Source: Sphingobacterium sp. SYP-B4668 (GTDB lineage: Bacteria > Bacteroidota > Bacteroidia > Sphingobacteriales > Sphingobacteriaceae). From it: DNA of 64,000 bases. Of this stretch, positions 25,144-31,422 are shown piece after piece. Within the stretch, counting starts at the first letter, position 1, and each line of letters begins with the position of its first letter. A program made the translations under genes and the position numbers. The stretch is taken from positions 744,001 to 808,000 of the forward strand of contig NZ_CP115483.1 of assembly GCF_027627455.1 (NCBI RefSeq), given 5' to 3'. A model generated the notes under the pieces. That model saw only the letters and a list, made by a program, of their open reading frames with translations, made no database searches and had not been told where the DNA came from.

Positions 25144-26733
25144 ATGGAGACTTACAATAATCCAGTATTGGCACGTCTGCCATCACATCTCAAAAAGTAT
25201 GTGGTACCGCAGCAATATGAACGATATACCGCTATTGATCAAGCAATATGGCGTTATGTGATGCGGCAAAATTATGCCTATCTCAAAGATGTAGCTTACT
25301 ATCCCTATATTCCTGGACTTCGTAAAGCAGGTTTGACTATTGAGTGCATCCCCAGCTTACAAAGTATGAATGATAGTTTGCAGCACATTGGTTGGGGTGC
25401 TGCTACGGTGGACGGTTTCATTCCACCATCTGCGTTTATGGAATTTCAAGCATATCGTGTGCTTGTTGTTGCGGCTGATATCCGACAGATGGAACACATC
25501 GAATATACCCCTGCACCAGATATTATACATGAGTCTTCGGGTCATGCGCCAATAATTGGGGAACTAGAATATGCCGAGTACTTGCAATATTTTGGTGAGA
25601 TCGGTGCCAAAGCGATGTTTTCTGCGAAAGATTTTGAACTTTATGAGGCGATTAGACGATTGTCCATCATCAAGGAAAAGGGCGATGCGACAATTGGCGA
25701 GGTTGAAGAAGCAGAGTCGATTCTGAATAATATACAACAAAATATGGGAGAGCCATCCGAAATGGGGCTGTTGAGTAGGTTGCATTGGTGGACAGTTGAA
25801 TACGGGTTGATTGGCCCTTTAGATAATCCCAAGATATATGGCGCGGGGTTACTATCGTCTATTGGTGAGAGTGCATCTTGTATGCGTCCTGAAGTGCTCA
25901 AACTTCCCTACACCCTAGAAGCTATTGAGTATCCCTATGATATTACCAAGCCACAGCCACAATTATTTGTGACTCCTGATTTCGGTCGACTGAGGGAGGT
26001 GCTGGATAAGTATGCTGACTCGATGGCTTTTCGTGTCGGGGGCAAGGTGAGCGTCGACAAAGCGATTGCTTGCCATAATATTTGTACTGTAACGTATAGC
26101 TCGGGATTACAGGTTTCGGGTGTATTTCAAACGACTGCTCAGTCTGATGGACTGATATACATTCGGACAAAAGGACCTTCTGCGCTGTCCTTTCAAGGGA
26201 AACAACTGGATGGTCACGACAAATCGTATCACGCTGAGGGATTCAGTAGTCCGGTAGGCAGATTAGCGGCTGCCGGTAAATCTCTAGAGTACTATACGGT
26301 GGACGATCTGGCTGGTGCAGGTATACAAATTGGCAAAGAGACCCAACTTACTTTTGAATCTGGGATAGAAGTGCGGGGAGTCGTCCAATCCATGATTTTT
26401 CGAGAAGACAAACTTTTATTGCTGTCATTTTCGCCTTGTCAAGTGACAGATGTTCGAAATTGTATGGTGTTATTTGAACCTGATTGGGGGACATACGACA
26501 TGGCTGTTGGAGAATATATAACATCGGTGTTCTCTGGAGCTGCTGATAAAAGTGCTTTTGAAACTCAAGCAACAGTTTCCAATGTCAAATCGGCCCAACA
26601 ACAATACGATGAAGACACCATTTTTCTACAGGGGCTGTATGCCGATATCAGAAGTATCCGTGAAGGGCATCGTGCTGAAAGGACTGTTCAAGACTTATTT
26701 GAGCAGTTGGTCGATCAATACCCAACAGCTTAG
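25144..26733 (+). CDS. Aromatic amino acid (phenylalanine 4-monooxygenase-type) hydroxylase, ends at an in-frame TAG
   Basis: A 529-residue protein whose first about 290 residues are a pterin-dependent aromatic amino acid hydroxylase. The iron ligands His129 and His134 lie in IIHESSGHAPI, and Glu219 in WWTVEYGLI. It probably converts Phe to Tyr, feeding the adjacent tyrosine catabolic genes. The C-terminal half (about 300-529) is absent from the roughly 260-300 residue proteobacterial enzymes and looks beta-rich. The frame ends at TAG (26731-26733) and then stays open for 57 protein-like codons, so the ancestral protein was probably 587 residues. Activity of the catalytic domain may survive. 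The specific substrate is inferred from neighbours. Confidence 0.88.
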   Translation: METYNNPVLARLPSHLKKYVVPQQYERYTAIDQAIWRYVMRQNYAYLKDVAYYPYIPGLRKAGLTIECIPSLQSMNDSLQHIGWGAATVDGFIPPSAFMEFQAYRVLVVAADIRQMEHIEYTPAPDIIHESSGHAPIIGELEYAEYLQYFGEIGAKAMFSAKDFELYEAIRRLSIIKEKGDATIGEVEEAESILNNIQQNMGEPSEMGLLSRLHWWTVEYGLIGPLDNPKIYGAGLLSSIGESASCMRPEVLKLPYTLEAIEYPYDITKPQPQLFVTPDFGRLREVLDKYADSMAFRVGGKVSVDKAIACHNICTVTYSSGLQVSGVFQTTAQSDGLIYIRTKGPSALSFQGKQLDGHDKSYHAEGFSSPVGRLAAAGKSLEYYTVDDLAGAGIQIGKETQLTFESGIEVRGVVQSMIFREDKLLLLSFSPCQVTDVRNCMVLFEPDWGTYDMAVGEYITSVFSGAADKSAFETQATVSNVKSAQQQYDEDTIFLQGLYADIRSIREGHRAERTVQDLFEQLVDQYPTA

Positions 26734-26907
26734 TTGGCATTGTTGGAGATACTCGAAGTTGTCACTGAACAGTCTGATAATGAATTGTCCTTAGCAGTTG
26801 AGCGTAGATTGAACGCCATTCAAACACAACATCCGCAGCTCAATAAATTGATTGCCGATGGGATAAGGTTGGTGAATGATCGTGACATTGGAATCCTATT
26901 GATTTAA
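26734..26907 (+). pseudogene. Severed C-terminal segment of the aromatic amino acid hydroxylase
   Basis: Directly after the amber codon the same frame encodes 57 residues (beginning LALLEILEVVTEQ and ending RLVNDRDIGILLI) before a TAA. The segment is rich in Leu and Glu and probably helical. It overlaps the end of the convergent flavin reductase gene by 12 nt. If the stop replaced a Trp codon (TGG to TAG), the junction would read PTA-W-LALLEI. It is a nonsense-truncated tail, a read-through extension or a sequencing error. Confidence 0.75.
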
Positions 26908-27798
26908 TAGTAAAATCTGCCAAGCTTGCTCTATCTCTCCATCATCCAATAGCTGTGCGGCATACTGATGTAGGTGCAACTGGAGTTGCTGCGTGTCATT
27001 TTGCCAAGTATTCAGTAGTTGTTGGATGAGGAGATTGGTGGCCGCGCTTTGTTTTAGTAGAGGTAGCTCCTCAACATTGGCCAATAGGCCGAGGTGATTA
27101 CCTGTTAATACTCTAGAGAGTCGGATATGTGTCGGTAATCTGTCAATTCCTATTCCTAGACTACGCAGTGGTTTGGGGATTTTAAAGAGATTGTCTCTCG
27201 TTACTCGACAATACCAGTCCCCACCCAATCGCGCAACGAGGTCCAATGCATCTTGAGCAATCTCGTTTTGTTCATCGACAAGGTGTTCGTGCACATGCAT
27301 ACTCAGTATTTCGGCTAATACCAGGTTACCTGCTCCGGGGGCATCACTGAGTGGTATAATATTCGTCACTCGACATTCTAATTGTACGGGAGATTCTGCT
27401 ACGCGTGGGGGGGTCACATGATCCGATGCAATCGCTGTAAAACCCGCCTTTTCAAATTCATTTACTCCTTTGACATACTCAGTGCTAGCCAGAGATTGTT
27501 GCTGCACCATGCTGTAGCTCACAATATTAATGACTACCTCGCCAACTTCTTTTATGTTTTCCAGTGTATGCTTGGTCGATCCATCTCGCATTCGACGCAA
27601 AGGAGAGAAGACGCAAATCGGCGGTTGGTGTGACATCAGGTTGAAGTAGCTAAAGGGGCTAAGATTAATATTGCCGTTAGCATCAACTGTACTGGCAAAA
27701 CAAATAGGACGGGGAGCTACCGCGTATTTGATTAAATTATCAAATATCGTTTGTTGTTGTATGGGGTCAAAAGTTTTGGTGTTTATATGCTGTGACAT
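26896..27798 (-). CDS. Flavin reductase-like (FMN-binding split-barrel) protein
   Basis: A 300-residue protein. Residues 15-200 match the flavin reductase-like domain: APRPICFASTVDANGNINLSPFSYFN, then PPICVFSPLRRMRDGSTKHTLENI and EVVINIVSY. About 100 C-terminal residues (from GIGIDRLPTHIRLS) are an extension of unknown role. It is 39 nt from fahA on the same strand and lies within an aromatic amino acid degradation island, so it may act in that pathway, but its reaction is unknown. It could be an FMN-binding enzyme rather than a reductase. Confidence 0.82.
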   Translation of the reverse strand: MSQHINTKTFDPIQQQTIFDNLIKYAVAPRPICFASTVDANGNINLSPFSYFNLMSHQPPICVFSPLRRMRDGSTKHTLENIKEVGEVVINIVSYSMVQQQSLASTEYVKGVNEFEKAGFTAIASDHVTPPRVAESPVQLECRVTNIIPLSDAPGAGNLVLAEILSMHVHEHLVDEQNEIAQDALDLVARLGGDWYCRVTRDNLFKIPKPLRSLGIGIDRLPTHIRLSRVLTGNHLGLLANVEELPLLKQSAATNLLIQQLLNTWQNDTQQLQLHLHQYAAQLLDDGEIEQAWQILLLNQ

Positions 27799-27837: not shown

Positions 27838-28812
27838 TTAAGATTGTAGAACAAGAGTATTGTGCAGCTGTCCCAGCCCTGTTACTTCTAAAGTTACCTC
27901 GTCGCCTTCGGATAGCCATTGTTCTGTGTAATTGGGCGAGTGGAGTTTGCCCGTACCGTTCAATTCCAGGAAGCACCCTGTTCCTACAGTTCCTGAGCCG
28001 ATGACATCTCCTGGATATATCTCCACACCATAGGATATTCTTTCGATGATTTCTGCAAATGTCCAGTGCATATCTGCAAAACTACCTTTAGACACTTGAA
28101 TGCCATTGATAGAGCAGGTCATTTGAAGGTTGTATGCATCGCCAATATGTCCTGTTGGAGCAGGTATCTTGAATGGGAGGAGTTCGTCTTTTGTTACTAG
28201 CCATGGACCGATGGCCGTCGCAAAGTCTTTCCCCTTAGCTGGCCCCAAGCTCAGTTTCATTTCTTCCATTTGTAGCGCTCGCGCACTAAAGTCGTTCATG
28301 ATCATATATCCTGCTATATATTGATCTGCGTCTTTGGCGGCAATATTTTTGCCGCGTTTGTTAATGACGATAGCGACTTCCAGTTCGAAGTCTAGTTTTT
28401 CAAAGTGTTGGGGCATGCAGTATACATCACCTGGGCCAACTATAGCTTGATGATTGGAAAAATAAAATACGGGAAACTTATCAAATTCTGGAATCATGTC
28501 CAATCCACGATTCCGTCTGGAAGTGGCCACATGCTGCCTAAAAGCATACGCATCACGTAGTGATTTGGGGTGAGGTACCGGAGCCATAAAGGATACTTCT
28601 TCAATAGCGAGAGTTCCTTCATGATTTTGTTTGGAAGTGGTGATGCGGTCATAAGATTCTTGCAGGATTTGCATGCTTTCAGCACCCCCATCCAAAAACT
28701 GAGCCATAGTAGCGGGGTACGTTGGGTTGGTTTTGGAAATTGGGTAGATCCATTTTCCGACAACAAATCCTAAGCCTTCTAATCCTTCATATAGGTATGT
28801 TGCAATTTTCAT
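27838..28812 (-). CDS. fahA: Fumarylacetoacetate hydrolase family protein
   Basis: A 324-residue FAH-fold enzyme. FYFSNHQAIVGPGD, DFELEVAIVINKRGKNI and the metal-ligand region GYMIMNDFSARALQMEEM are characteristic. GKDFATAIGPWLVTKDEL and PGDVIGSGTVGTG follow. Next to hmgA and hppD, it most likely hydrolyses fumarylacetoacetate to fumarate and acetoacetate, the last step of tyrosine breakdown. It is shorter than eukaryotic-type FAH (about 420), so the specific assignment rests partly on context. Confidence 0.88.
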   Translation of the reverse strand: MKIATYLYEGLEGLGFVVGKWIYPISKTNPTYPATMAQFLDGGAESMQILQESYDRITTSKQNHEGTLAIEEVSFMAPVPHPKSLRDAYAFRQHVATSRRNRGLDMIPEFDKFPVFYFSNHQAIVGPGDVYCMPQHFEKLDFELEVAIVINKRGKNIAAKDADQYIAGYMIMNDFSARALQMEEMKLSLGPAKGKDFATAIGPWLVTKDELLPFKIPAPTGHIGDAYNLQMTCSINGIQVSKGSFADMHWTFAEIIERISYGVEIYPGDVIGSGTVGTGCFLELNGTGKLHSPNYTEQWLSEGDEVTLEVTGLGQLHNTLVLQS

Positions 28813-29113: not shown

Positions 29114-30271
29114 ATGTCAATTTATCATCAACTGGGTAAAATCCCAAAAAAAAGACACACAGTTTTCAGAAAATCCAACGGAGAGTTGTATGCTGAGGAA
29201 CTAGTATCTACACATGGTTTCTCTAGTACGTACTCCTTGGTTTATCACTGTCATCCTCCAACCTTGGTCAAACAGATTAGAGAGCCCTATGATGTCTCTC
29301 CAACAGTCGCCCGTGAAAAACATCTTAAACATACCAGTTTAAAAGGATTTAAGATTCAACCAAAGGCCGACTACCTAGAGAGCCGGACCCCAATTTTGGT
29401 TAATCAAGATTTGCATATCTCACTCGCAGCACCTCAAGAATCCATGCGCACCTACTTTTACAAAAATAGTCAGGCGGATGAAATCATCTTTGTGCACGAA
29501 GGGAGGGGTGTCTTGAAAACGGGATATGGTCATATTCCCTTTGAATATGGTGATTACCTCGTGATTCCACGAGGGGTTATCTATCAATTAGATTTCGAAA
29601 ATGCAGAGAATAGACTTTTTATCGTAGAGTCGTTTGCACCTGTAAGGACTCCCAAGCGATATCGTAATGAGTTTGGACAGCTTATGGAGCACGCTCCCTT
29701 TTGCGAGCGGGATATCAAACGACCTCTTGATTTGGAGACAATAGACCAATTCGGGGAATTTGAGATTAGGATAAAGAAGCAAGGGTTGATATACCCATAT
29801 GTGTATGGCAGTCATCCCTTCGATTTTATAGGATGGGATGGCTATCATTATCCATGGGCATTCTCCATACATGATTTTATGCCTATTACGGGCAAGCTTC
29901 ATCAACCTCCTCCTGTGCACCAGACATTTGAAACCGATTCTTTCGTGTTGTGCAGTTTCTGCCCAAGGCTATATGATTATCACCCCCAATCCATCCCAGC
30001 TCCTTATAATCATAGTAATGTGGATTCAGATGAGGTGTTGTATTATGTAGATGGAGATTTCATGAGTCGTAAATCTGTTGAGCGGGGGCAGATCACATTA
30101 CACCCGGGGGGGATACCTCATGGACCACATCCCGGTACTGTCGAAAAAAGTATTGGGCAGACCAAGACGGAAGAGCTTGCGGTCATGATTGATCCTTTTA
30201 GACCCTTGATGTTAACACAAAAGGCGTTGGAAATCGAAGATCAGGATTACTATAAATCTTGGTTGAGTTAG
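29114..30271 (+). CDS. hmgA: Homogentisate 1,2-dioxygenase
   Basis: A 385-residue cupin-type iron dioxygenase opening the ring of homogentisate to maleylacetoacetate. The block VHQTFETDSFVLCSFCPR and the iron-site region NHSNVDSDEVLYYVDGDF are typical, as is HPGGIPHGPHPG. It heads a + strand operon with hppD 23 nt downstream. It is somewhat shorter than the human enzyme (445), as usual for this bacterial subgroup. Confidence 0.93.
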   Translation: MSIYHQLGKIPKKRHTVFRKSNGELYAEELVSTHGFSSTYSLVYHCHPPTLVKQIREPYDVSPTVAREKHLKHTSLKGFKIQPKADYLESRTPILVNQDLHISLAAPQESMRTYFYKNSQADEIIFVHEGRGVLKTGYGHIPFEYGDYLVIPRGVIYQLDFENAENRLFIVESFAPVRTPKRYRNEFGQLMEHAPFCERDIKRPLDLETIDQFGEFEIRIKKQGLIYPYVYGSHPFDFIGWDGYHYPWAFSIHDFMPITGKLHQPPPVHQTFETDSFVLCSFCPRLYDYHPQSIPAPYNHSNVDSDEVLYYVDGDFMSRKSVERGQITLHPGGIPHGPHPGTVEKSIGQTKTEELAVMIDPFRPLMLTQKALEIEDQDYYKSWLS

Positions 30272-30294: not shown

Positions 30295-31422
30295 ATGACA
30301 AAAACCTTTGCAGAGAAAATAGCACTTGCCCAAGATTTTCTTCCCATTAATGGGACGGATCACATTGAATTCTATGTCGGCAATGCTAAGCAAGCGGCAC
30401 ATTATTACAAGACGGCTTTTGGATTTCAGTCTGAGGCCTATGCCGGACCGGAGACCGGAGTGCGTGATCGGGCTTCATATGTCCTTCGGCAGAATAAAAT
30501 TAGACTAGTATTAACCACTGCACTCCATTCGGATCATCCAATAGCTCATCATGTCAAAAAACACGGTGATGGAGTAAAAATATTGGCTCTATGGGTGGAT
30601 GATGCTAAAAAGGCTTATGAAGAAACTGTTAAGCGAGGAGCAAGGTCATATCAGGAGCCTAAAATCATGCTGGATGAATATGGTGAGGTTTGTACGTCGG
30701 GTATTTATACTTATGGCGAGACTGTTCATCTATTTGTTGAACGGGGGAACTATCGAGGCGCTTTTATGCCTGGCTATGAACCTTGGGAGAGCGACTATCA
30801 ACCGAAGGAAACAGGTTTGTTATATATCGATCATTGTGTAGGTAATGTTGGGTGGAATCAAATGAACGAAACTGTTGAATGGTATCAAAATGTGATGGGT
30901 TTTGTCAATGTACTTTCTTTTGATGACAAACAGATCAATACCGAATATTCCGCCCTTATGAGCAAAGTAATGAGTAATGGAAATGGTTTCGTCAAATTTC
31001 CTATTAATGAACCGGCCGAGGGAAAGAAAAAATCCCAGATTGAAGAATACTTAGAATATTATGAAGGCGAGGGTGTACAACATGCTGCTCTGGCAACCCA
31101 AGATATCGTCAATACGGTAAAAGCTTTAAAGGATAGAGGCGTAGAGTTTTTAGGTGCTCCACCAGAAGCTTATTATGATATGTTACCTGAGCGTGTAGGG
31201 CAGATTGATGAAGAAATTAAGATTATCCAAGAGTTGGGTATCTTGGTTGATAGAGATGATGAAGGGTATCTTTTACAGATTTTCACAAAGCCAGTTGAAG
31301 ATAGACCGACATTATTTTACGAGATTATTCAACGTAAGGGGGCACAAAGTTTTGGCGCCGGTAATTTTAAGGCATTGTTCGAGGCAATAGAGCGTGAGCA
31401 AGAGAAACGAGGTAATCTATAA
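30295..31422 (+). CDS. hppD: 4-hydroxyphenylpyruvate dioxygenase
   Basis: A 375-residue two-domain vicinal-oxygen-chelate enzyme turning 4-hydroxyphenylpyruvate into homogentisate. Iron ligands are the His of IDHCVGNV, the His of VQHAALAT and the Glu of FYEIIQRKG, and the C-terminal helix GAGNFKALFEAIE gates the site. I start it at ATG 30295 (MTKTFAEKIALAQDF). The frame extends 12 codons upstream to a TTG that overlaps hmgA, which is less likely. It lies directly behind hmgA. Confidence 0.96.
   Translation: MTKTFAEKIALAQDFLPINGTDHIEFYVGNAKQAAHYYKTAFGFQSEAYAGPETGVRDRASYVLRQNKIRLVLTTALHSDHPIAHHVKKHGDGVKILALWVDDAKKAYEETVKRGARSYQEPKIMLDEYGEVCTSGIYTYGETVHLFVERGNYRGAFMPGYEPWESDYQPKETGLLYIDHCVGNVGWNQMNETVEWYQNVMGFVNVLSFDDKQINTEYSALMSKVMSNGNGFVKFPINEPAEGKKKSQIEEYLEYYEGEGVQHAALATQDIVNTVKALKDRGVEFLGAPPEAYYDMLPERVGQIDEEIKIIQELGILVDRDDEGYLLQIFTKPVEDRPTLFYEIIQRKGAQSFGAGNFKALFEAIEREQEKRGNL

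Follow-up and report, generated by a model that had tools for sequence, protein, structure and literature searches.

An in-frame TAG in a long-form aromatic amino acid hydroxylase gene of Sphingobacterium sp. SYP-B4668: a probable strain-level nonsense allele

Long-form hydroxylases and the interrupted gene

Long-form aromatic amino acid hydroxylases are collected in the family NF010657 (PRK14056), whose profile has a length of 580 and a curated cut-off of 346 bits; a full-length member has about 580 residues and includes a C-terminal helical module. Among the described enzymes is the phenylalanine hydroxylase of Bacillus cereus ATCC 14579 (crystal structure, PDB entry 7vgm), for which a published paper (PMC10776388) names R32, D62, R494, E530 and E533 around a hydrogen-bonding network. 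The phenylalanine hydroxylase of Chromobacterium violaceum (1ltv and related entries) consists of the catalytic domain only, without the beta domain or the C-terminal helical module. A literature search found no paper on Sphingobacteriaceae bacterium DW12, the relative used for comparison below, or on a Sphingobacterium phenylalanine-4-hydroxylase.

The window, i.e., the whole stretch of 64,000 nucleotides that was analysed, belongs to a genome of one 5.42-Mb contig, in which no second copy of the hydroxylase was found. On its forward strand the ORF 25144-26733 contains 529 codons and then TAG, and the same frame is open again from 26734 to a TAA at 26905-26907. Residues 1-529 (25144-26730) match NF010657 with an E value of 2.6e-211, as well as Pfam Biopterin_H; their score of 703.6 bits lies above the cut-off, so that this body belongs to the family, and its residues 11-527 correspond to positions 6-523 of the 580 in the profile. 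It comprises the catalytic and beta domains together with C-terminal helices one and two, and the iron ligands H129, H134 and E219, already recognised in the preliminary description, are all there and do not vary among 39 aligned relatives. Beyond the TAG, which is codon 530 (26731-26733, forward strand), the severed remainder of the gene (26734-26907, forward strand) consists of 57 codons, which belong to the C-terminal helical module, and the TAA. This tail by itself matches positions 529-578 of the 580 in NF010657 (E 1.3e-4). Because of this C-terminal match, together with a gapless and collinear alignment to the tail of DW12, the tail is regarded as the missing end of the hydroxylase gene and not as a chance open frame.

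That is to say, the window hydroxylase is an interrupted member of NF010657 and not an intact one: it stops at 529, and most of the helical module lies beyond the TAG. Its identity as a phenylalanine hydroxylase is predicted from the family. The profile match and the DW12 alignment bear out the earlier observation of an in-frame TAG followed by 57 protein-like codons up to TAA; the accompanying statement that the last 57 residues are lost is correct for the codons after the stop, but relative to the intact protein 58 residues are missing, i.e., W530 and these 57.

Comparison with DW12 and with homologues

The second genome labelled as the same species (G256) is that of DW12, record JROE01000004.1, which is 97.4% identical to the window over 13.6 kb. 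Its hydroxylase gene (L031 6001-7764) is intact and encodes 587 residues, and its codon 530 is TGG, exactly one base apart from the TAG of the window; the TGG-to-TAG change proposed as a possibility in the preliminary description was thereby confirmed. Tryptophan also occupies this column in 58/58 homologues of an alignment that covers, by record titles, Bacteroidota, Verrucomicrobiota, Bacillota and Gammaproteobacteria, and W530, L531 and E538 are invariant in an alignment of 39 sequences. Not one of the 58 homologues ends at 529. The homologue alignment suggested earlier for this codon thus gives a sense codon throughout, and a natural end at 529, the finding that would have spoken against an interruption, was rejected, since no intact homologue stops there and all have tryptophan. 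On the compared sequences, the nonsense change is specific to this genome, because DW12 has TGG and an intact gene and the tryptophan is invariant in homologues. As for the age of the mutation, the data would place it only after the split from DW12.

In a survey of the genus, 54 of 93 genomes were found to carry the hydroxylase gene, and no intact copy ends near 529. The remaining 39/93 are without any match, and owing to this absence, loss of the gene is, judged by gene content, tolerated in the genus. Two of the 54 copies are interrupted, that of the window and that of genome G038. In the latter (a one-contig genome; L014 and L162), an independent nonsense change has replaced the glutamate codon within the iron-ligand motif HESSGH by TAA, and the remaining frame is intact. 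The G323 homologue, which had also been flagged with a TAG, has a natural full-length end there.

The tail of the window gene differs from that of DW12 in 7 codons besides the stop and shows no indels. Five of these differences are nonsynonymous and 2 synonymous; the body has 15 and 26, respectively (Fisher p 0.037, nonsynonymous sites). They fall at positions that are variable across the whole family, and compared with the other variable stretches near the C-terminus the tail shows no significant difference (p 0.16 and 0.45), so relaxed selection on the tail was rejected as a sign of decay. Nor does the body, placed in the 58-homologue alignment, show clearly faster decay than that of DW12, changes at conserved positions being present in both lineages. 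In the window protein codon 208, near the iron-ligand helix, is glycine, where DW12 and 52/57 homologues have alanine; the full-length DW12 protein departs from glycine at two positions, with cysteine at 372 (glycine in all 57 other homologues) and serine at 393 (glycine in 43/57).

Consequence of the stop and competing explanations

It is considered probable that the window carries a strain-level TGG-to-TAG nonsense allele, whose truncated product is probably impaired, and that the gene stands at the start of decay. In this genome, a single G-to-A change would have converted TGG (W530) into TAG after the split from DW12; RF1 would then terminate at this codon and release a protein of 529 residues. 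Normally, the last three C-terminal helices would pack on the catalytic domain, and without them the truncate would probably be unstable or poorly active. The gene would thus be at the onset of decay, a strain-level loss that is presumably tolerated.

The structural side of this explanation comes from an AlphaFold2 model of the full-length DW12 protein (mean pLDDT 89.7). The model has five helices in the stretch from residue 490 to residue 578; the third of them opens with residue 530, so the stop takes away three of the five. The model aligns with 7vgm over 563 residues (Z 43.0, rmsd 2.9, 43% identity), and by alignment the residues named for 7vgm, R32, D62, R494, E530 and E533, correspond to R37, E67, R503, E535 and E538 here. 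R37 and E67 belong to the catalytic domain, and the first of the lost helices carries E535 and E538. From the model, from the analogy with 7vgm and from the description of its network, we infer that this lost helix normally docks on the catalytic domain. Since the stop removes it, the product of 529 residues is likely to be unstable or impaired, and hydroxylase function is most likely reduced or lost, as favoured by both conservation and structure.

The same truncation could be real and yet harmless if the last three helices are dispensable for the folding and activity of the catalytic domain. This is consistent with the intact iron ligands and catalytic domain, with the short bacterial hydroxylases of about 300 residues, which are the catalytic domain alone, and with the conserved sites of the body, which have not clearly changed more often than in DW12. 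It is nevertheless unlikely, since W530, L531 and E538 are invariant, the intact homologues of the genus do not end near 529, and the lost helix appears in 7vgm to touch the catalytic domain.

Another explanation is that the strain has TGG and the assembly consensus is wrong at this single base. Only one base in one genome is concerned, and outside it the gene has a functional appearance; against this stands an assembly of one contig with 99.95% completeness. In a comparison of 332 kb with DW12 (97.05% identity), the hydroxylase alone among 252 comparable ORFs looked truly interrupted. Judged by eye from their translations, the remaining ORFs that were flagged are likely start-site artefacts of the ORF caller: their breaks all precede a plausible internal start, after which the frame is intact. 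Because no other clear break, nonsense or frameshift, was seen among the 252, poor assembly quality in general is unlikely on this comparison, and the sequencing error listed among the first options is accordingly doubtful, a lone wrong base being the form of it that could still apply; we consider such an error quite improbable.

It is very improbable that the interrupted gene keeps normal hydroxylase activity by way of low-level UAG read-through or a separately made tail. RF1 was earlier reported in the window, with UAG taken as a stop, and this stands: the RF1 gene is intact, and TAG terminates 70/247 long ORFs in 400 kb, i.e., it is an ordinary stop here. Among the tRNA genes that ARAGORN identified at all 65 places matching the Rfam tRNA model (RF00005), none has a CUA anticodon, a census that may be incomplete, 150/306 first-look candidates having been scored. 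A pattern scan for a suppressor tRNA was no richer in hits than its control (52 in each), and the only hit with tRNA geometry proved to be tRNA-Arg(TCT) by ARAGORN. Moreover, an in-frame UAG is not conserved at the site, which is tryptophan in all 58 homologues and TGG in DW12. On the genomic evidence a reassigned UAG or a suppressor tRNA is not supported. Read-through by such a tRNA or by a programmed event, giving a full-length protein, is thus hardly credible; the option, raised in the preliminary description, found no support, and the conservation of the downstream frame without indels is accounted for equally well by a recent mutation. A restart of translation at the TTG that immediately follows the TAG, which would yield the tail as a separate peptide complementing in trans, is just as remote, for although a TTG-start ORF begins at 26734, this TTG simply codes for the invariant L531 and nothing else is in favour.

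Neighbouring genes and relation to known enzymes

Downstream lies a convergent flavin-reductase-like gene (26896-27798, reverse strand), which at its 3' end shares 12 bases with the ancestral end of the hydroxylase gene, as in DW12; the 12 nt originally given for the distance between the end of the tail and the stop of this gene (low end 26896) are correct. It is followed by an intact gene of the fumarylacetoacetate hydrolase family (27838-28812, reverse strand), a probable tyrosine-catabolism neighbour of the same length in DW12, and on the forward strand by an intact homogentisate 1,2-dioxygenase-like gene (29114-30271) and an intact 4-hydroxyphenylpyruvate dioxygenase gene (30295-31422; TIGR01263, E 3.2e-138). 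Loss of the hydroxylase would stop the entry of phenylalanine into the pathway and leave the use of tyrosine unaffected; the adjoining tyrosine catabolism genes could still use tyrosine.

In summary, this looks like a known enzyme hit by an ordinary and recent gene-damaging mutation. For annotation, it follows that an interrupted hydroxylase gene should be recorded for this genome, with little importance beyond that; the allele is also a natural truncation for probing what the C-terminal module does in phenylalanine hydroxylases of the long form, with the intact DW12 gene as the control. Compared with known systems, the C. violaceum enzyme shares the catalytic fold, over residues 13-297 of the model, and the B. 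cereus enzyme aligns with the full-length model and conserves the tryptophan. However, 7vgm is full length, whereas the window protein is without the last three helices. The long-form hydroxylases of NF010657 resemble the window gene in the body and in the match of the tail, but the window gene is interrupted by the TAG at codon 530.
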